Below, in pieces: positions 16,945 to 26,694 of a stretch of 64,000 nucleotides of DNA; position 1 is the stretch's first letter; each line of letters begins with the position of its first letter. Both the position numbers and the translations under genes were made by a program. Source of the stretch: Glycomyces amatae (GTDB lineage Bacteria > Actinomycetota > Actinomycetes > Mycobacteriales > Micromonosporaceae); assembly GCF_020991375.1 (NCBI RefSeq), contig NZ_JAJLQZ010000009.1, positions 1 to 64,000 of the forward strand, in the 5' to 3' direction. The notes beneath the pieces are model-generated. The model was not told the origin of the DNA. It saw only the letters and a list, made by a program, of their open reading frames with translations, and made no database searches.

Positions 16945-16998
16945 CCTGAAACGCCGGTGCCTCACCGCGAATCCGCGGTGAGGCACCGGCGTTTCAGG
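16945..16998. terminator. Bidirectional terminator with 25-bp perfect stem
   Basis: Positions 16945-16969 and 16974-16998 are perfect reverse complements around a four-base AATC loop. The stem starts seven bases after the aldo/keto reductase stop and contains the TGA stop codon of the convergent erythromycin-esterase-like gene (16994-16996). The arms end in GAAA/TTTC, giving a short U run in both directions. Confidence 0.88.
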
Positions 16999-18040
16999 TC
17001 GCGCTCTCGTTGAGGTGCAGGACCGCGTCGGCGCCCTCCAGCGTCTCCCGGTCCAGCGGGAAGCGGCCCTCGCCCTTGAACTCGTCGGCGGCCGTCAGGC
17101 CCCAGGCCTCGCCCGCGCCGGGCGCGGTGCCGCCGAGGACGCAGACGTACCGCTCCCGCAGTAGCGCGGCCACGACCGCGCCGGCCCCGTTCCAGGCGAG
17201 GTCCATGCCCGCCATGGACATGCGGCTCCGGTTCCGCTGCAAGTGGACGTTGTGCCCGCAGACCATGGTCGGGCCCCGGCGGGCCTCCAGGTCGCGGACG
17301 TCGAGCAGGTTCCGTGCCATGATCGCGTCCCGCACGGCCGACAGCCGCGACCACCGGTCGCCCTCGTCGGTCCGGACCGCCGCCTGCCGGTGGTAGCGCA
17401 GCAGGTCCAGCGCCGTGGCGACGTGCACCCTGGCCCGGTCCCAGTCGGCGCGCGAGGCGGCCGCGATCAGCCGGGGCGCCTCGGCGTAGAGCGCGGTGAG
17501 CATGTCGTCGGCGATCGCCCGCAGCCGCCGGGCCTCGTCGGTGTCGCCGGGCGACCGGTCCGGGTCGGTGACCGCCTCCATGCCGCCCCACCGGTCGTCG
17601 TCGCCGACGAGCGGCGCCAGGTCCAGGTCGAGTCCGAGGCGGTCGCGCCCGAACTCCAGGTACCGCCGGGGGCTCTCCGCGGTGAACTCGAACGGCGCGT
17701 CCATGCCGTGGAACGCCAACCGCTCCTCGGGCGCCCGCCGCTCGTTGTACTCCCGCATCCAGGCGACCAGCCGCCGGTTGGCGTCGTGGGCGCCGAACCC
17801 GTGCGAGAACCCCTCCGCGAGCACGGCCTCGAAGTCGCCCTCTCCTTCCCGGACGTAGTCGTCGACGGCGAACGCGGCCACCCGGTCGGTCTCGAGCGCG
17901 ATCGACCGGAAGCCGCGCTCGACCAGCCGCGCGAACAGCTCGTTGCGGATCAGCCCGTAGGCCGGCTCCCGGTGGTCCGGCTCGCCGAACCCCAGCAGGT
18001 CGCACGAGTCGTTGACGAATTCGCAGATGTCCTGAGTCAT
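16994..18040 (-). CDS. Erythromycin esterase-like family protein
   Basis: A 348-residue protein related to erythromycin esterases and succinoglycan biosynthesis proteins (EreA-like fold). Conserved elements are LLGFGEPDHREPAYGLIRNELFARL with the family Glu and His, FRSIALETDR, GFSHGFGAHDANRRLVAWM, and the C-terminal GPTMVCGHNVHLQRNRS, where the His residues lie in the metal or active-site region. Some relatives hydrolyse macrolide lactones; most have no known substrate. A GAGG site precedes the chosen ATG closely; an in-frame ATG four codons upstream has none. It is divergent from a double-HTH MerR regulator, which may sense the compound it degrades. Confidence 0.85.
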   Translation of the reverse strand: MTQDICEFVNDSCDLLGFGEPDHREPAYGLIRNELFARLVERGFRSIALETDRVAAFAVDDYVREGEGDFEAVLAEGFSHGFGAHDANRRLVAWMREYNERRAPEERLAFHGMDAPFEFTAESPRRYLEFGRDRLGLDLDLAPLVGDDDRWGGMEAVTDPDRSPGDTDEARRLRAIADDMLTALYAEAPRLIAAASRADWDRARVHVATALDLLRYHRQAAVRTDEGDRWSRLSAVRDAIMARNLLDVRDLEARRGPTMVCGHNVHLQRNRSRMSMAGMDLAWNGAGAVVAALLRERYVCVLGGTAPGAGEAWGLTAADEFKGEGRFPLDRETLEGADAVLHLNESAT

Positions 18041-18106
18041 GGCCTCAAACATATCGTTGAAACAGCGGTTGAACTTCGCCTCGGCCCCGGCCTCGGAGCC
18101 GTCCGG

Positions 18107-18112
18107 TAAAGT
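18107..18112 (+). promoter_or_regulatory. -10 box of a probably leaderless MerR-type gene
   Basis: TAAAGT lies nine bases before the ATG, with no ribosome binding site between. A transcript starting seven bases after the box would begin at or within two bases of the start codon. Repeated GTTGAA half-sites in the same 81-bp gap (about 18055 and 18069) could be operator elements. Confidence 0.45.
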
Positions 18113-18121
18113 CTCAAACCG

Positions 18122-18829
18122 ATGACGAACCTGCGGCCTTCCGACCTCGCGCGGGAGCACGGCCTGTCGACCCAGACGGTGCGCAACTACGAGCGCGACG
18201 GGTGCCTCCCGCCCGCCGGGCGCACCCCCGGCGGCCACCGGGCCTACACCGAGGTCCACGCGGCGGCCCTCCGCGCCTTCCTCGCGCTGACCAGGGCCTA
18301 CGGGCACGCGACCGCCGCCGAGGTCATGCACGCGCTGCACGACGGGAAGCTCGACGACGCCCTGATGGTCGTCGACCGCGGCCACGAGCAGCTCCTGCGC
18401 GACCGGACCACCCTCGACGCCGTGCGGGCGGCGGTCACGGGCCTGACGGCCGAGCCCGCGAGCGACTTGCGCCCCTTCACCATCGGCGAGGTCGCGTACC
18501 GGCTCCGCGTGACCCCGGCGACGCTGCGCAACTGGGAGGGCGCCGGGATACTCGCCCCCGCCAGGGACCGGGCCGGGTACCGCCGCTTCGACGCCGAGGA
18601 CGTCCGCGACGCCGAGCTCGCCCACCTGCTGCGGCGCGGCGGCTACCCGCTGGACCACATCGCGACCGTGGTCCAGCAGGTCCGGACGGCGGGCGGCGCC
18701 GAGGCGCTGTCCGAGGCCCTGGAGGACTGGCGCCGCAGGCTGACCGGCCAGGGCCTCGCCATGCTCGAGGCCGCCGCGCACCTCAGCCGCTACCTGGACG
18801 CCGGCCCGCCGCGCTCCGGCGGCCGCTGA
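18122..18829 (+). CDS. MerR-family regulator with two HTH domains (TioE-like)
   Basis: A 235-residue protein containing two MerR-type winged-helix DNA-binding domains: LRPSDLAREHGLSTQTVRNYERDG (about 4-27) with GGHRAYTEV, and FTIGEVAYRLRVTPATLRNWEGAG (about 120-143) with AGYRRFDAEDV. This layout matches TioE-family regulators, known in actinomycetes near antibiotic or detoxification genes. It faces the erythromycin-esterase-like gene across 81 bp, which suggests that it controls that gene and itself. The start has no ribosome binding site, and a leaderless transcript is likely. Confidence 0.88.
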   Translation: MTNLRPSDLAREHGLSTQTVRNYERDGCLPPAGRTPGGHRAYTEVHAAALRAFLALTRAYGHATAAEVMHALHDGKLDDALMVVDRGHEQLLRDRTTLDAVRAAVTGLTAEPASDLRPFTIGEVAYRLRVTPATLRNWEGAGILAPARDRAGYRRFDAEDVRDAELAHLLRRGGYPLDHIATVVQQVRTAGGAEALSEALEDWRRRLTGQGLAMLEAAAHLSRYLDAGPPRSGGR

Positions 18830-18847: not shown

Positions 18848-19963
18848 TCACGCCGCGGCCGGGACCTGCCGCTGCCCCGGTCCGGTGTAGGCGCTCAGCG
18901 GGCGGATCAGGGCGTTCGCGGCGAGCTGCTCGATGACGTGCGCCGACCAGCCGGTGATGCGGGACATGACGAACAGCGGCGTGAACATCGGGATGTCGAA
19001 GCCCATGAGGTGGTAGGCGGGCCCGGCCGGGAAGTCCAGGTTCGGGTGGAGCCCCTTGGCCTCCAGCATCGCCGCCTCGAGCTCCTCGTACATCGCGACC
19101 CACCTGCCGCCGTCGACCCGCTCGGCCATGGCCGTGAACGCGGCCTTCATGGTCGGCACCCGCGAGTCCGCGCCCTTGTAGACCCGGTGCCCGAACCCCA
19201 TGACCTTCTCCTTGGCCGCCAACCGGTCCCGGAGCCAGTCCCGGGCGAGGGCCGGGTCGCCGATCTCGAGCATCATGCGCATGACGGCCTCGTTCGCGCC
19301 GCCGTGCAGGGGCCCCTTGAGCGCGCCGATCGCGGCGGTCACGGCCGAGTAGATGTCCGACAGCGTGGACGCGACCACGCGCGCGGTGAACGTGGAGGCG
19401 TTGAAGCTGTGCTCGGCGTACAGGATCATCGAGATCTCGAAGCAGCGCAGCACCTCCGGCGCGGGCACCTCTCCGAAGCACATGTGGAAGAAGTTCTGGG
19501 TGAAGCCCAGCCCCGCGTCCGGCGGGATGCGGTCCAGGCCCCTGCGGCGCCGGTGGCCGTGGGCGATCACCGTGGGCAGCTTGGCGAACATCGCCTCGGC
19601 CTTGGCCCGGTTGGCGGCCGGGCTGTTGTCGTCCTCTGCCGGGTCCTCCGCGCCGAGGCAGCTGACGGCGGTGCGCAGCAGGTCCATCGGGTGGCAGTTG
19701 TCCGGGACGCGGTCGATCACGCCGATGGTCGAGCGGGTCACCTCCCGCTGCGCCCGCTCGCGCTCGGTGAAACGCCGCAGCGCGGCCCCGTCGGGCAGCT
19801 CGCCGTACCAGATGAGGTGCGCGACCTCCTCGAAGCTCCGCGACGCCGCGAGCTGCTGCACGGGGTAGCCGCGGTAGGTCAGCGAGTTGGTCTCGGGCAC
19901 GACCTCGGAGATCGCGGTGGTGTCCGCGACCACCCCGGCCAGGCCCTTGCGGATGTCGCTCAT
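18848..19963 (-). CDS. prpC: 2-methylcitrate synthase
   Basis: A 371-residue citrate-synthase-fold enzyme that condenses propionyl-CoA with oxaloacetate to 2-methylcitrate. Catalytic residues are visible: His in LYAEHSFNAST, His in KVMGFGHRVYKG and Asp in LHPNLDFPAGPAYHLMGF. The GPLHGGANEAVMRMM segment binds the substrates. Its place as the third gene after prpD and prpB, with a four-base ATGA overlap with prpB, supports methylcitrate rather than citrate synthase. It is expected to be induced with the operon on propionate or odd-chain fatty acids. Confidence 0.95.
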   Translation of the reverse strand: MSDIRKGLAGVVADTTAISEVVPETNSLTYRGYPVQQLAASRSFEEVAHLIWYGELPDGAALRRFTERERAQREVTRSTIGVIDRVPDNCHPMDLLRTAVSCLGAEDPAEDDNSPAANRAKAEAMFAKLPTVIAHGHRRRRGLDRIPPDAGLGFTQNFFHMCFGEVPAPEVLRCFEISMILYAEHSFNASTFTARVVASTLSDIYSAVTAAIGALKGPLHGGANEAVMRMMLEIGDPALARDWLRDRLAAKEKVMGFGHRVYKGADSRVPTMKAAFTAMAERVDGGRWVAMYEELEAAMLEAKGLHPNLDFPAGPAYHLMGFDIPMFTPLFVMSRITGWSAHVIEQLAANALIRPLSAYTGPGQRQVPAAA

Positions 19964-20865
19964 GCGTCCCTCCCCGGGATCTGAAAATCGAACAGCTCCT
20001 GGTCGAACGCCGCGTAGGAGGCGTAGTCGACCAGCTCGTACAGGCGCGCCCGGGTCTGCATCCGGTCCACCACGGACGCCTGCGTGCCTTCGGCGTTCAG
20101 CGTCTCCAGCAGGGTCTCGACCGCGCCCATCGCGGCGCGGAGGCTGCTCACCGGCCAGATGACGGCGTTGTAGCCGAGCTCCTGCAACCGCTCGGCGCCG
20201 AGCAGCGGCGAGGCCCCGAACTCGGTCATGTTCGCCAGCAGCGGCACGTCGACCGCCGCGCGGAACGCGGCGAACTCGGCCTCGTCGCGCATCGCCTCGG
20301 GGAACACCATGTCCGCCCCGGCGTCCACATAGGCCTTCGCCCGGTCGATGGCGGCGTCCAGGCCCTCGACGGCGCGGGCGTCGGTGCGGGCGCAGACCAC
20401 GAAGTCGGGGTCGGTGCGGGCCCGCACCGCCGCGGCCACGCGGCGGACCATCTGCTCGACCGGGACGACCTGCTTGCCGTCGAGGTGGCCGCAGCGCTTG
20501 GGGTTCACCTGGTCCTCCAGGTGCAGCCCGGCGAGCCCGGCGTCCTCGAACGCGCCGACCGAGCGCGCCACGTTGGACACCTCGCCGAAGCCGGTGTCGG
20601 CGTCGACGAGCGTCGGCAGGTCCGTGGCGCGCGCGATCTGCCCGCCCCGCCCGGCCACCTCCGTCAGCGTCGTCAGTCCGATGTCGGGCAGGGCGAGGTC
20701 GGCCGCGAGCGCGGCCCCGGAGGCGTAGACGCCGTCGAAGCCGTGGTCGGCGACGGCCCGCGCGGCCAGCGGCGAGAACGCCCCGGGCAGGCGCTGGATC
20801 CGCCCCGAGGCCAGGCCCTCGCGCAGTCGGCGGCGCTTGTCGGCGGGCGTGGTGCGCTGCGTCAT
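19960..20865 (-). CDS. prpB: 2-methylisocitrate lyase
   Basis: A 301-residue member of the isocitrate lyase/PEP mutase superfamily that splits 2-methylisocitrate into pyruvate and succinate, the last step of the cycle. The signature KRCGH loop is in HLEDQVNPKRCGHLDGK, with the Cys as general acid/base. Metal ligands lie in LPTLVDADTGFGE, and the substrate-loop residues SGAALAADLALPDIGLTT are also present. Both ends overlap neighbours by four bases (prpD stop and prpC start), which indicates translational coupling. Confidence 0.96.
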   Translation of the reverse strand: MTQRTTPADKRRRLREGLASGRIQRLPGAFSPLAARAVADHGFDGVYASGAALAADLALPDIGLTTLTEVAGRGGQIARATDLPTLVDADTGFGEVSNVARSVGAFEDAGLAGLHLEDQVNPKRCGHLDGKQVVPVEQMVRRVAAAVRARTDPDFVVCARTDARAVEGLDAAIDRAKAYVDAGADMVFPEAMRDEAEFAAFRAAVDVPLLANMTEFGASPLLGAERLQELGYNAVIWPVSSLRAAMGAVETLLETLNAEGTQASVVDRMQTRARLYELVDYASYAAFDQELFDFQIPGRDA

Positions 20866-22361
20866 CAGAAGAGTCCTCCGCGGTTCGGTTCGGTGAGCGC
20901 CGGGGCCGAGAGGTTCAACTGCCGGACCTCCTCGGCGTCGAGCCGGTCGAGGCGGCGGGCCAGGTCCAGGAACCGGTCCTGCTCGGCCGCGTCGACCACG
21001 CCTTCGGCGAGTCGGCGGAACTTCGCGATGTACTGCTCGCGCCCGAAGGGCCTCGCGCCCCTGGGGTGCGCGTCGGCCACGGCGATCTCGTCCTCGATCC
21101 GCGAGCCGTCCTCGAGCGTCACCGTCACCCGGCCCCCGAAGGCCCGCTCATCCGGGTCGGGGTCGTGGTACCGGGCCGTCCACTCCGGATCCTCGACCGT
21201 GCGGACCTTGCGCCACAGGCGCACGGTCGACTCCCGGTGCGCCCGTTCAGGAGTGTAGGACCGCTCGTGGTGCCAGTCCCGGTCCTCCAGGGCCACCGCG
21301 AAGATGTAGAGGATCGAGTGGTCCAGGGTCTCGCGGCTGGCGTCCGGGTCGGTCTTCTGCGGGTCGTTCGCGCCCGTTCCGATCACGTGGTGCGTGTGGT
21401 GGCTCGTGCGGATCACGACCTCCGCGACGCGCGAGAGGTCCCCGATCCGGGGCGCGAGGCGCCGCGCCAGGTCGATGAGCGCCTGGCTCTGGTACTCCGC
21501 CGAGTGCTCCTTGGTGTACGTGTCCAGGATGGCGCGCTTGGGCTCCCCGGCCTCGGGCAGCGGCACCTCGTACCGGGCCCCGGGCCCGCCGAGCAGCCGC
21601 GCGATCACGCCGTCCTCGCCCTCGTAGACCGGCGAGGGCGCGCCCTCGCCGCGCATGGCCCGGTCGACCGCCTCGACCGCGAGCTTCCCGGCGAACGCGG
21701 GGGCGTACGCCTTCCACGACGAGATCGCGCCCTTGCGGCTCTGCCTCGTGGTCGTCGTGGTGTGCAGCGCCTGGCCCACCGCCTGGTACACCGTCTCGGC
21801 GTCCAGGCCCAGCAGCGTCCCGATCCCGGCCGCCGCCGAGGGCCCCAGGTGCGCGATGTGGTCGATCCGGTGCTCGTGCAGGCAGATCCCGCGCACCAGG
21901 TCCACCTGGACCTCGTACCCGGTCGCGATGCCGCGCACCAGCGCCCGCCCGTCCAGGCCCCGGTGCTGGGCCACCGCCAGGACCGGCGGGATGTTGTCGC
22001 CGGGGTGCGAGTAGTCGGCGGCCAGGAACGTGTCGTGGAAGTCGAGCTCGCGCACGGCGACCCCGTTCGCCCACGCCGCCCACTCGGGGGAGACCCGCGG
22101 CGCGGGCCCGAGGCCGAACACGCCCGCGCCGGGCCGGTACGGGTGGGCCAGCGCCTGCGCCCGGGCGTTCACCACGGGGGAGCGGGCCAGCGACGCGGCC
22201 GCGACCGCCGCGTTGTCGATGACCCGGTTCCCGATCATCTCGGCGACCTCGGGCTCGACCTCCACGGGGTCGGCCGCGACCCGCGCGATCCTCCAGGCGA
22301 GCTGCTCCTCGCGGGGCAGCTCCTCCGCGGAGGCGTACGTCCGGACCACATGTGTCTGCAA
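20865..22361 (-). CDS. prpD: 2-methylcitrate dehydratase
   Basis: A 498-residue MmgE/PrpD-fold enzyme that dehydrates 2-methylcitrate to 2-methyl-cis-aconitate without an iron-sulfur cluster. Family segments include [22 protein letters not shown] near the active site, [43 protein letters not shown] and VYEGEDGVI. The start is a TTG placed six bases after GAGGAG, giving [20 protein letters not shown], which matches how PrpD proteins begin; a GTG four codons later is the alternative. It is the first gene of the operon, directly downstream of the control element shared with the regulator. Confidence 0.95.
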
Positions 22362-22421
22362 CTGGATCTCCTCGCCCTGCGGCCACCGCCGCGTTCCGTT
22401 CCTCTGCCCGAAGGGTAGGTT

Positions 22422-22510
22422 CACAGTATGCACAGATCCGAATCCCCTTGAAACAGCTGTAAATGTGGTTTCTTGTGGAATTTTTCGGCCGCAGTTGTGA
22501 ATCTTGTGAA
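22422..22510. promoter_or_regulatory. Control element A: prpD promoter and PrpR/RamB-type operators
   Basis: The divergent gap holds, on the prpD strand, a CATACT -10-like box (22425-22430) with TTCAAG 16 bases upstream. Farther upstream is a 20-base block (22463-22482) holding the TTC-N5-GAA imperfect palindrome TTCTTGTGGAA, and then two TTGTGAA repeats nine bases apart (22495 and 22504) next to the regulator's ribosome binding site. Every element recurs with the same order and spacing at 25582-25669. The layout fits activation of prpD and feedback on the regulator gene. Confidence 0.8.
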
Positions 22511-22521
22511 AGGGCGTGGTC

Positions 22522-23943
22522 ATGGCGTTGAAGAAGGCGAAGGTCGGGCTGCGGCTGCGCCGCTTCCGCGAGGAGCAGGGCCTCACCCAGGCCGCGCTGG
22601 CCTCGGCGCTGGGCATCTCGACCAGCTACGTCAACCAGATGGAGTCGAACCAGCGGCCCATCACCGGCCCGGTCCTGCTGCGCCTCGCCGAGGTCTACGA
22701 CGTGGACGTGCAGCGCTTCTCCGCCGCCGAGAGCGACCGGCTGGCCGCGCAGCTGCGCGACGCCCTCGCCGACACCGCCCACGCCGAGCAGGTCCCGCCC
22801 TCCGAGACCCGCCAGCTCGCCGAGGGCGCCCCCGAACTCGCGCGCTACGTCGTGGACCTGCACCGCCGCTACCGGCACGCCCTGGAGCGCAACGCCGCCA
22901 TGAGCGCCGAACTCGACGCCGGGGCCTCGCCCACGGCCTACGAGGAGGTGCGGGACCTGTTCTACGCCAAGCGCAACTACATCCCCGAACTGGACGAGGC
23001 CGCCGAGCGGCTCTGCGCCGAGGCCGGCCTCCACCCCGATCCCGTCGGCGGCCTGACGCGGCTGCTGCGCGAGCGCCACGGCACCGCCGTCGCCGACCTC
23101 GACCCGGCCGAGCAGGCCCGCACGAAGCGCCGCTTCGACCCCGAGACCCGGGTCCTGCGCCTCTCCGCGCTCCTGAACCCCGCCCAGCGCGCGTTCCAGC
23201 TCGCGACCCACCTGGCCCTGACCGGGTTCGCCGACCTCATCGAACCGCAGGTCGCCGCCGCGGACCTGTCAGGGGACGAGGCGCGGGCCCTGGCGCGGGT
23301 GGGCCTCGCCAACTACTTCGCCGGGGCCCTGATCCTGCCCTACGGCGCCTTCCACAGGGCCGCCGAGGAACTGCGCTACGACATCGACCTGCTCCAGCGC
23401 CGCTTCCACGTCGGCTACGAGACCGTCGCCCACCGCCTGAGCACGCTCCAGCGGCCCGGCGCGCGGGGCGTGCCGTTCTTCTTCGTCCGCGTCGACCGGG
23501 CCGGGAACATCTCGAAGCGCCAGTCCGCCACCGACTTCCACTTCTCGCGCGTCGGCGGCACCTGCCCCCTGTGGAACGTCTACGAGGCGTTCTCCCAGCC
23601 CGGCGCGGTCCGCACGCAGCTGGCCCAGATGCCGGACGGGCGCGCCTACCTGTGGGTCGCGCGCACCGTCACCAGCAGCTACGGCGGCTTCGGGACGCCC
23701 ACCAAGACCTTCGCGGTGGGCCTGGGCTGCGACCTCCACCACGCCCACCGCCTGGTCTACGCCGACGGCCTCGACCTGGCGAACCCCGCCGCCCGCACCC
23801 CGATCGGGCCCGGGTGCAAGGTGTGCGACCGGGACGGCTGCCCGCAGCGGGCCTTCCCGGCCATCGGCAAGCCGCTGGAGGCGACCGGCCACCGCAGCCG
23901 GTTCACCCCCTACCCCTCGACCACCGAGCCCGACCGGGACTGA
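22522..23943 (+). CDS. prpR: PrpR/RamB-like short-chain fatty acid regulator
   Basis: A 473-residue transcription factor. The N-terminal XRE helix-turn-helix ([24 protein letters not shown], about 10-33) is followed by an IrrE/ImmA-like middle domain in which the peptidase HExxH is not retained (FQLATHLAL at the equivalent place). The C-terminal DUF2083-type domain carries the Cys set GTCP, GLGC and [10 protein letters not shown]; in Mycobacterium tuberculosis PrpR the equivalent region binds an Fe-S cluster and acyl-CoA. It is divergent from prpDBC and so is probably its propionyl-CoA-responsive activator. The ATG lies eight bases after GAAAGGG; a GTG two codons earlier is too close to it. 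Confidence 0.9.
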
Positions 23944-23949
23944 GCCCGG

Positions 23950-25152
23950 TCAGCCCCCCATCGCCTCGCGCAGGATCGCGACGCCGCGGTCGATCTCGTC
24001 GGGCTCGACCACCAGCGGCGGTGCGATGCGGACGGTCCGGTGGTGGGTCTCCTTGCACAGCAGGCCGTTGCGGGCCGCGCGCTCGCAGACCTCGCGGGCG
24101 GTCGGGCCGCCGTCGGCGAGGTCCACGCCCGCCCACAGGCCGCACACCCGCACCGCGTCCACGCGGCTCGGGTCGAGCCCGGCGAGCGCGGCCTCGAGGT
24201 GCTTGCCGAGGTCCTGGGCGCGCGCCTGCCACTCGCCGGTGGCGAGCATGGCGACGACCTCGGTCCCGACCGCGGCGGCGAGCGGGTTGCCGCCGAACGT
24301 GGACCCGTGGGTGCCGGGCGTGAAGACGTCCATGACCTCGCGGTCGGCCGCGACCGCCGAGACCGGCACGATGCCGCCGCCGAGGGCCTTGCCCAGCAGG
24401 TACACGTCGGGGACCACGCCCTCCCGGTCGCATGCGAAGGTGCGCCCGGTGCGGGCCAGGCCCGACTGGATCTCGTCGGCGATCATCAGCACGCCGTTCC
24501 GGTCGCAGGCCTCGCGGACCGCGCGCAGGTAGCCGGCCGGCGGGATCAGGACGCCCGCCTCGCCCTGCACCGGCTCGACGAGGACGGCGACCGTGTCGGG
24601 CCCGATCGCGGCGGTGAGCGCGTCGGCGTCGCCGTAGGGCACCGAGTCGAACCCGGGCGCGAAGGGCCCGAACCCCTCTCGCGCCGACGGGTCGGAGGAG
24701 AAGCCCACGATGGTGGTGGTCCGTCCGTGGAAGTTCCCGTCGAACACGACGATCCGCGCCCGGTCCGCCGCGACGCCCTTGCGCTCGTACCCCCATTTGC
24801 GGGCGGCCTTGATCGCGGTCTCGACCGCTTCGGCGCCGGTGTTCATCGGCAGGACGGCGTCCTTGCCGCACAGCTCGGCGAGCCCGGACAGGAACGGCCC
24901 CAGCGCGTCGGTGTGGAAGGCCCGCGAGGCGAGGGTGAGCCGGTCGAGCTGGGCCTTCGCGGCCCCGACCAGCCGCGGGTGCCGGTGCCCGAAGTTGACC
25001 GCCGAGTACGCGGCGAGCCAGTCGAGGTAGCGGTTCCCCTCGGTGTCGGTGACCCACGCGCCCTCGCCTTCGGCGAGCACCACCGGCAGCGGGTGGTAGT
25101 TGTGCGCGCCGTATCGCTCCTCGAGCGCGGTCAGGTCGCTGGATCGGTTCAT
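23950..25152 (-). CDS. rocD: Ornithine--oxo-acid aminotransferase
   Basis: A 400-residue class III PLP-dependent transaminase that converts ornithine and 2-oxoglutarate to glutamate semialdehyde and glutamate in arginine and ornithine breakdown. The RocD hallmarks are RYLDWLAAYSAVNFGHRHP, LPMNTGAEAVETAIKAARKWGYE, the NFHGRTTTIVGFSSDP block, the PLP-binding Lys in YLLGKALGGGIVP, and GTHGSTFGGNPLA. It begins with a four-base overlap with the thioesterase gene, so the two form an operon. No other arginine-catabolic gene is nearby, and the link to the propionate cluster is unexplained. Confidence 0.92.
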   Translation of the reverse strand: MNRSSDLTALEERYGAHNYHPLPVVLAEGEGAWVTDTEGNRYLDWLAAYSAVNFGHRHPRLVGAAKAQLDRLTLASRAFHTDALGPFLSGLAELCGKDAVLPMNTGAEAVETAIKAARKWGYERKGVAADRARIVVFDGNFHGRTTTIVGFSSDPSAREGFGPFAPGFDSVPYGDADALTAAIGPDTVAVLVEPVQGEAGVLIPPAGYLRAVREACDRNGVLMIADEIQSGLARTGRTFACDREGVVPDVYLLGKALGGGIVPVSAVAADREVMDVFTPGTHGSTFGGNPLAAAVGTEVVAMLATGEWQARAQDLGKHLEAALAGLDPSRVDAVRVCGLWAGVDLADGGPTAREVCERAARNGLLCKETHHRTVRIAPPLVVEPDEIDRGVAILREAMGG

Positions 25153-25547
25153 GGGTGCCCTTTCGGTGTGCTGGTCGGTCGGGCCGGGCCCCAGCCCGGC
25201 GGGGGCTCGGCGGCGACCATGTGGAAGGTGCCGCGCACGGCTTCGCGGCGCTCGCCGCTCGGGAGGTCCTCGGCGACCACGACGACCGAGACGGTCATCG
25301 AGCGGCGGCCGCGCCGCTCGACCACGGCGGTGGCCTCGACGAGGTCGCCGGGCCGGATCGGCTGGGAGAAGGCGATGCCGTCGGCGCCCGCGCAGACGAC
25401 GTCGGTGCGGGCCTCGCGGCTCGCGGCCACGAACGCGGCCCGGTCCATCAGCGCCATGGCGGCCCCGCCGAACAGGGTGCCGCGGTGGTTGAGCTGCTCG
25501 GGGAACACGACGTCGGCGATCGTCGGGCCCGGTGCCGGTGTCGTCAT
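25149..25547 (-). CDS. Acyl-CoA thioesterase (hotdog fold)
   Basis: A 132-residue single-hotdog enzyme expected to hydrolyse acyl-CoA to free acid and CoA. PEQLNHRGTLFGGAAMALMDRAAFVAA matches the YciA/BFIT-type catalytic motif (N-H-x-G-T-x-F-G-G...D). The RPGDLVEATAVVERRGRRSM strand segment also fits. The Pro-rich C-terminal tail overlaps the rocD start. It is transcribed from control element B, a near-copy of the prpD control region, so a role in relieving propionyl- or short acyl-CoA build-up is a reasonable inference. GAGGAGG precedes the start. Confidence 0.88.
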   Translation of the reverse strand: MTTPAPGPTIADVVFPEQLNHRGTLFGGAAMALMDRAAFVAASREARTDVVCAGADGIAFSQPIRPGDLVEATAVVERRGRRSMTVSVVVVAEDLPSGERREAVRGTFHMVAAEPPPGWGPARPTSTPKGHP

Positions 25548-25560
25548 CGCGGTCGCCTCC

Positions 25561-26694
25561 TCATGGTCGCGGAACGTGATCCACAGTATGCGCAGCGCGG
25601 TTCCCGTTGGAACCGTTGCGGATGTGGTTTCTTGTGGAATTCTCCGGCCGGTGTTGTGAACGTTGTGAAGCCTCGGGGTGCAGCAGCGCGGCGGTGAGCG
25701 GCGCGGAGGAGTCGGCGGACAGGCCCGGCGGCGCCCACGGCGCCCCCGCCTCGACCAGCATGGACCCGACGGCGGCGATCATGGCGCCGTTGTCGGTGCA
25801 CAGCCGCGGCGCCGGGACGCGCAGCGCGATGCCGCGCTCGGCGCACCGCTCCTCGGCGAGCTCGCGCAGCCGCCCGTTCGCGGCCACGCCCCCGGCGATG
25901 ACGAGCGTGTCCACCCCGTGGTCGGCGCAGGCCGCGACCGCCTTGGCGGTGAGCACGTCGCACACGGCCTCCTGGAACGACGCGGCGATGTCCGCCACCG
26001 GCAGCGGCCCCTCGGCCGCCTCGACCCAGCGCGCCACCGCGGACTTCAACCCCGAGAAGGAGAACCCGTACTGCCCGACGGCGGCACGCGGGAACCGGAT
26101 CGCATCCGGGTCGCCGCCGAGGGCCGCCCTCGCGAGCGCGGGCCCGCCCGGATACCCCAGCCCCAGCAGCCGGGCGACCTTGTCGAAGGCCTCCCCGGCC
26201 GCGTCGTCGGCGGTGTCGCCCAGGTGCTCGATCGGGTCCCGGGCCAGGTCCCCGAGCATGAGCAGCGAGGTGTGCCCGCCCGAGACGACCAGGCCGACGC
26301 TCCGCTCGGGCAGCGGCCCGTGCTCGAGCGTGTCGGCGGCGACGTGCCCGGCGAGGTGGTGCACGCCGATCAGCGGCGCGCCCAGGGCGAGCGCGTACGC
26401 CTTCGCGGCGGCGATCCCCACCGTGAGCGCGGTCGCCAGGCCGGGCCCGGCGGTCACCGCGACCGCGTCCACGTCGCCCTTCCCCAGCCCGGCGCGCTCC
26501 AGCGCGGTCCGCACGGCCGGGACCATCGACTCCAGGTGCGCGCGGGCCGCGACCTCGGGCACGATCCCGCCGAACCGCGCGTGCCGGTCCATGCTCGTGG
26601 CCGTGCACTCGCCCAGCAGCCTTCCGTCCGCGACGAGCCCGACGCCGGTCTCGTCGCACGAGGACTCGATCCCGAGGACCACCGCGCCGCTCAT
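25561..26694 (-). CDS. tsaD: tRNA N6-threonylcarbamoyladenosine transferase TsaD with extended C-terminus
   Basis: A 377-residue ASKHA-fold protein that transfers threonylcarbamoyl to A37 of ANN-decoding tRNAs with TsaB/E partners. Seen are [13 protein letters not shown], the metal-ligand histidines in [52 protein letters not shown] and the metal Asp in [11 protein letters not shown]. The ATG with AAAGGGGG upstream gives the canonical start. The last 35 or so residues (from about [16 protein letters not shown]) exceed the normal family end and are encoded by the control element of the next operon. No tsaB, tsaE or groES is beside it, so this may be the only copy or a paralogue. Confidence 0.92.
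25582..25669. promoter_or_regulatory. Control element B: thioesterase-rocD promoter, near-copy of the prpD control region
   Basis: Repeats element A in order and spacing: CACAGTATGC (reverse CATACT -10 box), a TTCCAA -35-like box 16 bases further up, the identical 20-base block at 25622-25641, CGGCCG, and two TTGTGAA repeats nine bases apart (25654 and 25663). It faces the thioesterase gene 35 bp away and lies within the 3' end of tsaD. The PrpR-like regulator probably binds both copies. Confidence 0.8.

Follow-up and report, generated by a model that had tools for sequence, protein, structure and literature searches.

The control region between the methylcitrate gene prpD and its divergent regulator gene in the soil actinomycete Glycomyces amatae is present a second time in the same genome (6.17 Mb, 68 contigs), upstream of an acyl-CoA thioesterase gene and of rocD, which encodes ornithine aminotransferase. 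Both copies lie in the window, the 64,000-nucleotide stretch of contig NZ_JAJLQZ010000009.1 that was analyzed here. Judged from the sequence, we consider it likely that the repeat is the promoter and operator of the prp genes, read by a regulator of the MccR/PrpR kind, and that through the second copy the thioesterase and rocD respond to propionyl-CoA as well. The prp genes, the thioesterase, and rocD would then form a joint, co-induced regulon.

A duplicated control region

The two copies, termed A (22420–22510) and B (25580–25669), are 79% identical between 22422–22510 and 25582–25669 in MAFFT and BLAST comparisons (E = 1e-13 in a search of the complete genome), and nowhere else in it was a match found at E ≤ 10. 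Each can be divided into three parts, given here as read on the plus strand. In copy A, the distal box TTCACAGTATGCACA (22420–22434) holds, on the minus strand, the presumed −10 hexamer of prpD (CATACT, 22431–22426), which was read from conservation alone. The middle block ATGTGGTTTCTTGTGGAATT (22463–22482) contains two TGTGG boxes 10 bp apart, and the proximal tandem boxes TTGTGAA-N2-TTGTGAA (22495–22510) lie 75 bp from the distal box and reach the presumed ribosome-binding site of the regulator gene. Copy B, predicted to be the same bipartite operator and promoter serving minus-strand genes, has its distal box starting at 25580 and its proximal boxes TTGTGAACGTTGTGAA at 25654–25669, a spacing of 74 bp; these boxes are intact, yet no regulator gene follows them. 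Copy B also lacks the AAGG and the ATG that served the regulator gene in copy A, as expected if it has been kept for control of the thioesterase and rocD. The initial annotation had noted that the two copies share CACAGTATGC, an identical 20-base block (the middle block), and two TTGTGAA repeats nine bases apart, with a spacing that agrees within one base, and all of this was seen again.

These features are rare in the genome. The proximal pair TTGTGAA-N2-TTGTGAA occurs without mismatch only in copies A and B, and with two mismatches at six more places, compared with one for the reversed pattern used as control. Similarly, TGTGGTTTCTTGTGGAA is found exactly only in the two copies, and with three mismatches at two other places (control, one). 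A chance match as the source of the repeat, which had already been doubted, is ruled out by the E value in the genome itself together with conservation in 16 genomes (see below). Two features stressed at first did not hold: the palindrome TTC-N5-GAA is broken in two relatives (G017 and G034; G and L numbers denote genomes and loci of our sets), which rules it out as the operator, and CGGCCG falls in a variable stretch, which rules it out as a shared motif.

Copy A fills the space between prpD and the regulator gene, which point away from each other. On its left, the minus-strand genes (18848–22361) are prpC (2-methylcitrate synthase, 18848–19963) and prpB (methylisocitrate lyase, 19960–20865), and prpD (2-methylcitrate dehydratase, 20865–22361), with a TTG start inferred from its spacing to GAGGAG. 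On its right, the plus-strand gene of the ScfR-family regulator (22522–23943) is followed by a second minus-strand block (23950–26694), which contains rocD (23950–25152), the hot-dog acyl-CoA thioesterase gene (25149–25547), whose stop overlaps the rocD start (ATGA), and tsaD2, a second tsaD paralog (25561–26694). The RocD protein exceeds the cut-off of the equivalog model TIGR01885 (472.5 bits, cut-off 378.4) and falls below that of a second equivalog model, NF003145 (534.7 versus 656). Copy B occupies the region ahead of the thioesterase gene, its first downstream neighbor, and lies inside the end of tsaD2, the last ~37 codons of which are made up of the inserted copy and its edges (25561–25675). 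The tsaD2 product is 61% identical to the other TsaD protein of the genome (G000:C1:33510-34514).

Classification of the regulator

The regulator contains three domains above cut-off, a helix–turn–helix (HTH) domain (PF01381), a Peptidase_M78-like domain (PF06114), and the C-terminal ScfRs domain (PF09856), and its residues 67–468 align with the solved structure of Mycobacterium tuberculosis PrpR (6cyy). In this alignment, CKVCDRDGC of the regulator corresponds to CKICNRTSC, a C-X2-C-X4-C motif that is a predicted iron–sulfur site, and GGTCPLW corresponds to GGSCPLW, which includes the cysteine of the GAF-like part. The genes prpD, prpB, and prpC are divergent from the regulator gene at the window locus and at the 15 further loci examined in the genus. 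Against the RamB model NCBIfam NF038139, the regulator scores 578 bits, below the curated cut-off of 700. In an unrooted tree of 32 rows, it groups with actinobacterial prpD-adjacent and proteobacterial regulators (21 rows), which a branch with 100/100 support separates from the 11 others; the RamB-like label of these 11 rows follows from the finding that 10 of them show no adjacent prpD. Because of its domains, the PrpR alignment, the missed RamB cut-off, and its position in the tree, we assign the regulator to the MccR/PrpR kind. The earlier proposal of a PrpR/RamB-type protein is therefore retained in its first half, whereas RamB is ruled out by the score and by the position on the opposite side of the branch.

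Conservation of the element in Glycomyces

The regulator (E ≤ 1e-90), prpD (E ≤ 1e-100), and copy A are present in the same 16 of 22 Glycomyces genomes, and in all 16 copy A lies between the regulator gene and prpD, or a thioesterase gene followed by prpD (E values 2e-52 to 4e-11). All three are absent at these limits from the remaining six genomes, where the best DNA match has an E value of 2.8. In the alignment of the 16 A copies, the invariant parts are TTCACAGT-TG-ACA, a GAA/CTG stretch, GTGG-TTCTTGTG-AA, and TGTG-A..TGTGAAAG, and their spacing is fixed, with G006 one base shorter. This pattern supports the view that the element behaves as a regulator site, and conservation of copy A in related genomes, which had been suggested as a check, is thus complete (16/16 genus loci with prpD and regulator); copy B is worn in sister genomes, as discussed below. 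In the window, copy B keeps 39 of the 44 columns that are invariant in the A copies.

A bipartite layout in two phyla and its coordinated recoding

For comparison beyond the genus, the element was reduced to a 21-position template, in which two TTG[CT][AG]AA boxes two bases apart are combined with T[CT][CT][AG]CA[AG] 72–78 bp away, and a score of 18 was taken as threshold. Scoring was preferred to strict regular expressions, which recovered the proximal pair in 10 of 20 Glycomyces copies and in 46 of 78 other regions and missed the rest on account of single mismatches. The regulator loci are the best 80 of 534 relatives rather than independent samples of species; nine of them come from Glycomyces genomes already in the genus set and were excluded, and the proteobacterial count further excludes L116 and L117. 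The template scored at least 18 upstream of 64 of 71 proteobacterial regulators (69 loci) and in none of the letter shuffles; since its letters were picked after part of the sequences had been seen, this control measures chance and not choice. Among 20 actinobacterial regions picked by hand from the regulator list, it reached the threshold in seven of the eight next to prpD and in none of the 12 without prpD within the 2.2 kb fetched, one of which scored 17. Copy B of the window matches all 21 positions. Of the 78 regions examined, 72 had a proximal pair, and when the distal box was left free, its unique best position fell at 72–76 bp in 58 of these 72; seven gave ties and seven placed it elsewhere, and shuffles placed it at 72–78 bp in 14 of 1440 cases. 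A spacing of 75 bp corresponds to 7.1 helical turns at 10.5 bp per turn.

The layout seen in these proteobacterial and prpD-adjacent actinobacterial regions uses TTGCRAA instead of TTGTGAA boxes; in Proteobacteria the spacing is mostly 73–75 bp, and the proteobacterial consensus has a TTGCGAA box at the position of the middle block of copy A. Proximal half-sites of the TT type combined with distal half-sites of the AA type were found in 18 of 18 regions of the Glycomyces clade (16 genus members, G034, and one metagenome-assembled genome) and in 0 of 60 others; 62 of the 74 non-genus regions passed the thresholds for this comparison. The change of box type is one shift in evolution, in which several half-sites moved together, and therefore one protein probably reads all of them. 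Residues 7, 15, and 42 of the regulator HTH domain separate the two box types without overlap (18 versus 61 rows, with six rows of mixed box type left out). Residue 42 follows SYVNQME, which we take to be the recognition helix.

Insertion of a thioesterase cassette in front of rocD

Close orthologs of the thioesterase (E ≤ 1e-20) were found in five of the 22 genus genomes, each directly downstream of a copy of the element. In G004, G017, and G020, the thioesterase is the first gene after copy A, ahead of prpD; in G013 it is located elsewhere, behind a worn copy of the element, and in the window it stands behind copy B. In proteobacteria, a thioesterase gene (31–61% identity) is divergent from the regulator gene and at most 800 bp away in 42 of 69 loci, and it adjoins the regulator in 19 of the 26 loci in which prpD is at least 60% identical. 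Furthermore, an acyl-CoA thioesterase is listed beside a putative mccR in Paracoccus (PMC10370305; this and the other papers are cited for the excerpts accessible to us). Because of these Glycomyces copy-A loci, the proteobacterial loci, and the Paracoccus listing, we regard the thioesterase as a common member of methylcitrate operons; here it appears to have been carried out of its operon along with a copy of the promoter. Its control in the window would therefore be ordinary, and rocD would be the newcomer. The initial annotation had joined both genes to the prp genes: copy B is indeed correctly placed to drive thioesterase and rocD, but only rocD is a new partner.

The history of the junction can be followed in relatives. 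A rocD gene (E ≤ 1e-120) is present in 13 of the 22 genus genomes and tsaD2 in six, adjoining rocD in all six, and another tsaD is found elsewhere in all 22. In G004 and G017, the junction is free of the element: 14 bases separate the end of the common tsaD2 core from rocD, and the tsaD2 stop codon overlaps the start of rocD. The TsaD2 protein of these two genomes ends five residues beyond the common core. In G012, G005, and G016, remnants of tsaD2 precede rocD, and no element was found. In the window genome, the element and the thioesterase sit exactly in the tsaD2–rocD junction, before rocD's own ribosome-binding site GAAAGGG. G019 (G. dulcitolivorans) has kept the element and lacks the thioesterase; its tsaD2 reading frame extends across the element and on into rocD, and this uninterrupted frame of 797 codons (L040 3790-6114) may be a natural fusion. 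G006 has kept part of the element and a thioesterase gene shrunk by a large internal deletion, and G013 has two copies of the element, a worn one ahead of rocD and another that stands, together with an intact thioesterase frame, behind a gene of APH-like appearance. Because the element-free tsaD2–rocD junction survives in relatives, we conclude that copy B and the thioesterase were inserted as a cassette between tsaD2 and rocD, which would have become the new partner by promoter capture.

In the tree of regulator and prpD, the window genome groups with G011, and the other three genomes that carry copy B fall in another group. Copy B therefore appears either to predate this split or to have moved with its island between lineages; the trees of tsaD2 and rocD do not settle the choice. 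In G013 (L041 5310-6206), G010 (L221 3585-4427), and G019 (L040 2828-3673), remnants of the tsaD2/thioesterase/rocD island adjoin a gene that was labeled by eye as resembling an APH-type phosphotransferase, an arrangement that hints at island duplication followed by reciprocal loss.

Adjacency of rocD to the regulator or prp genes was seen in five of the 11 genomes that contain both, most of which may be explained by shared ancestry. A separate case is G021 (G. salinus), where rocD lies ~50 bp behind the prpC stop (L096 10622-10700). The gap contains a perfect 8-bp inverted repeat, CGGCACCG/CGGTGCCG, as read from the sequence, which could stop transcription, and rocD was accordingly rejected as a settled member of prp operons elsewhere. 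As to a physiological link, ornithine aminotransferase may feed glutamate and 2-oxoglutarate when metabolites of the methylcitrate cycle slow the citric acid cycle.

Proposed mechanism and alternatives

By analogy with M. tuberculosis PrpR, the regulator is expected to bind the tandem boxes and the middle block of copy A, ~50–90 bp ahead of the presumed transcription start of prp, and, at a distance of seven helical turns, to touch the inverted distal box that covers the prp −10. Holding an acyl-CoA ligand, presumably propionyl-CoA, it would turn on prpDBC, and its binding at the proximal boxes, next to its own ribosome-binding site, would probably damp its own expression. The fixed distance of 75 bp suggests that a tetramer could hold both ends, perhaps silencing the promoter when the ligand is missing. 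Copy B would be the same unit, complete with the thioesterase and placed just before the ribosome-binding site of rocD, and would most likely respond to the same propionyl-CoA signal. A fuller reading, which we put forward tentatively and regard as doubtful when all its parts are taken jointly, would see a bipartite operator shared by two phyla, with both ends on the same DNA face and bridged by a tetramer. All six boxes of the operator would have been recoded from TTGCGAA to TTGTGAA in Glycomyces and its closest relatives, along with the helix that reads them, and the switch, pasted with the thioesterase before rocD, would have wired ornithine breakdown to propionyl-CoA.

A simpler account of this scheme dispenses with bridging. 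The distal box overlaps the presumed −10, a distance of 75 bp suits an upstream activator site, and the footprint of M. tuberculosis PrpR covers just 25 bp (PMC3420887). The distal box might thus mark only the prp −10, with plain activator-to-promoter spacing and no bridging or looping, an explanation that we give a substantial, somewhat less than even chance. The joint change of distal and proximal half-sites (18/18 versus 0/60) would be unexpected for a mere −10, but it amounts to one evolutionary shift.

Control of both operons by the MccR/PrpR-type regulator is itself weighed against by several observations. A scan of 22300–25800 gave no match to a sigma-70 consensus promoter, and since tsaD2, thioesterase, and rocD are co-oriented, transcription could come from upstream of copy B. 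The layout is also imperfect among relatives: the prpD-adjacent regulator of L246 falls below the template threshold, the regulators of L082 and L083 adjoin prpD and lack the distal box, L082 being moreover the eleventh RamB-like row and the exception to that label, and the near kin L080 and L117 have no clear proximal pair. The remaining points concern copy B, which might be a relic, copied by accident as part of the cassette, free of MccR control, and giving weak constitutive or no transcription of rocD. Its template scores in the sister genomes G019, G013, and G006 are 19, 18, and 14 of 21, and the copy that accompanies the relocated thioesterase in G013 scores 17. The thioesterase behind copy B is lost, broken, or gutted in all three, and only 23 of the 44 A-invariant columns are identical in all four B copies, a modest constraint that barely exceeds the element average (permutation p = 0.04). 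We nevertheless consider a relic improbable. In the window, copy B has retained nearly all A-invariant columns and every template position at a spacing of 74 bp, the thioesterase frame is intact, and the presence of copy B in lineages separated in the regulator/prpD tree indicates that it is old or has moved. In G019 and G013, moreover, rocD follows copy B without an intact thioesterase, yet copy B still scores at or above the threshold of 18. That the block is instead a mobile or repetitive element (like a miniature inverted-repeat transposable element or a repetitive extragenic palindrome) that landed twice without duplicating any regulation is very improbable, despite the further copy with a thioesterase at another place in G013, given only two copies in the genome, no inverted repeat of at least 12 bases in 25500–25760, and a placement and phasing that are shared by 16 genomes and recur in other phyla.

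Relation to known systems

The regulator and the thioesterase part of the system are of a known kind, namely MccR/PrpR control of methylcitrate genes. M. tuberculosis PrpR activates prpDC with propionate and protects TTTGCAAA-N-TTTGCgAA, a sequence of period 9, over two boxes (PMC3420887), and it forms a tetramer with a CoA pocket and a [4Fe4S] cluster (PMC6765138). As in the window, regulator and prp genes are divergent there, the operator has two 8-bp boxes one base apart, and the ScfRs-domain protein carries a C-X2-C-X4-C motif (PMC3420887, PMC6765138). The boxes of the Glycomyces clade, TTTGTGAA, share the geometry of the tandem TTTGC(A/G)AA but differ from TTTGCAAA in their letters. In contrast to Glycomyces, the prpR–prpDC gap of M. 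tuberculosis, 20 bp as annotated, is too short for a distal box at 75 bp, and a second operator copy with thioesterase and rocD is not mentioned in the accessible excerpts of the two papers. Closer in arrangement are the proteobacterial mccR–thioesterase–prp loci (Paracoccus Pden_1349/1350, PMC10370305; L118–L187), in which the thioesterase adjoins the regulator and the operator is bipartite. They differ in their TTGCRAA boxes and in prpB and prpC, which are distant (~40–50% identity), and the comparison covers the operator at the regulator only. RamB (acetate) and PccR (propionyl-CoA carboxylase) belong to the same ScfR family, for which two-box operators are called common, and a distance of 18 bp is reported for class 2 RamB boxes (PMC10370305, excerpts). 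Actinobacterial regulators that are not beside prpD lack the layout (0/12) and lie on the other side of the tree from the window regulator.

Within the open-licence literature, and as far as our searches of its titles and the starts of its abstracts show, no description of this element and no joint methylcitrate–ornithine aminotransferase regulon was found. To the same extent, three things appear to be new: a 75-bp bipartite layout conserved in two phyla, the joint recoding of its boxes within the Glycomyces clade, and a promoter–thioesterase cassette that captured rocD. The locus offers a natural example of how a complete promoter can travel with a gene as one cassette and capture a neighbor, and relatives alive today preserve the states before and after the event as well as the worn state. 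The locus also reveals a long-range operator of fixed spacing in a family in which the best-studied prp regulator, that of M. tuberculosis, is described, in the source cited above, with a 25-bp footprint at a single site. Finally, the parallel recoding of operator and regulator makes DNA recognition by ScfR-family proteins directly testable.

Beside the prp genes, the window at 16997–18829 contains an erythromycin-esterase-like frame on the minus strand, next to a frame with a MerR-like start (18122–18829), both labeled from reading the translations.

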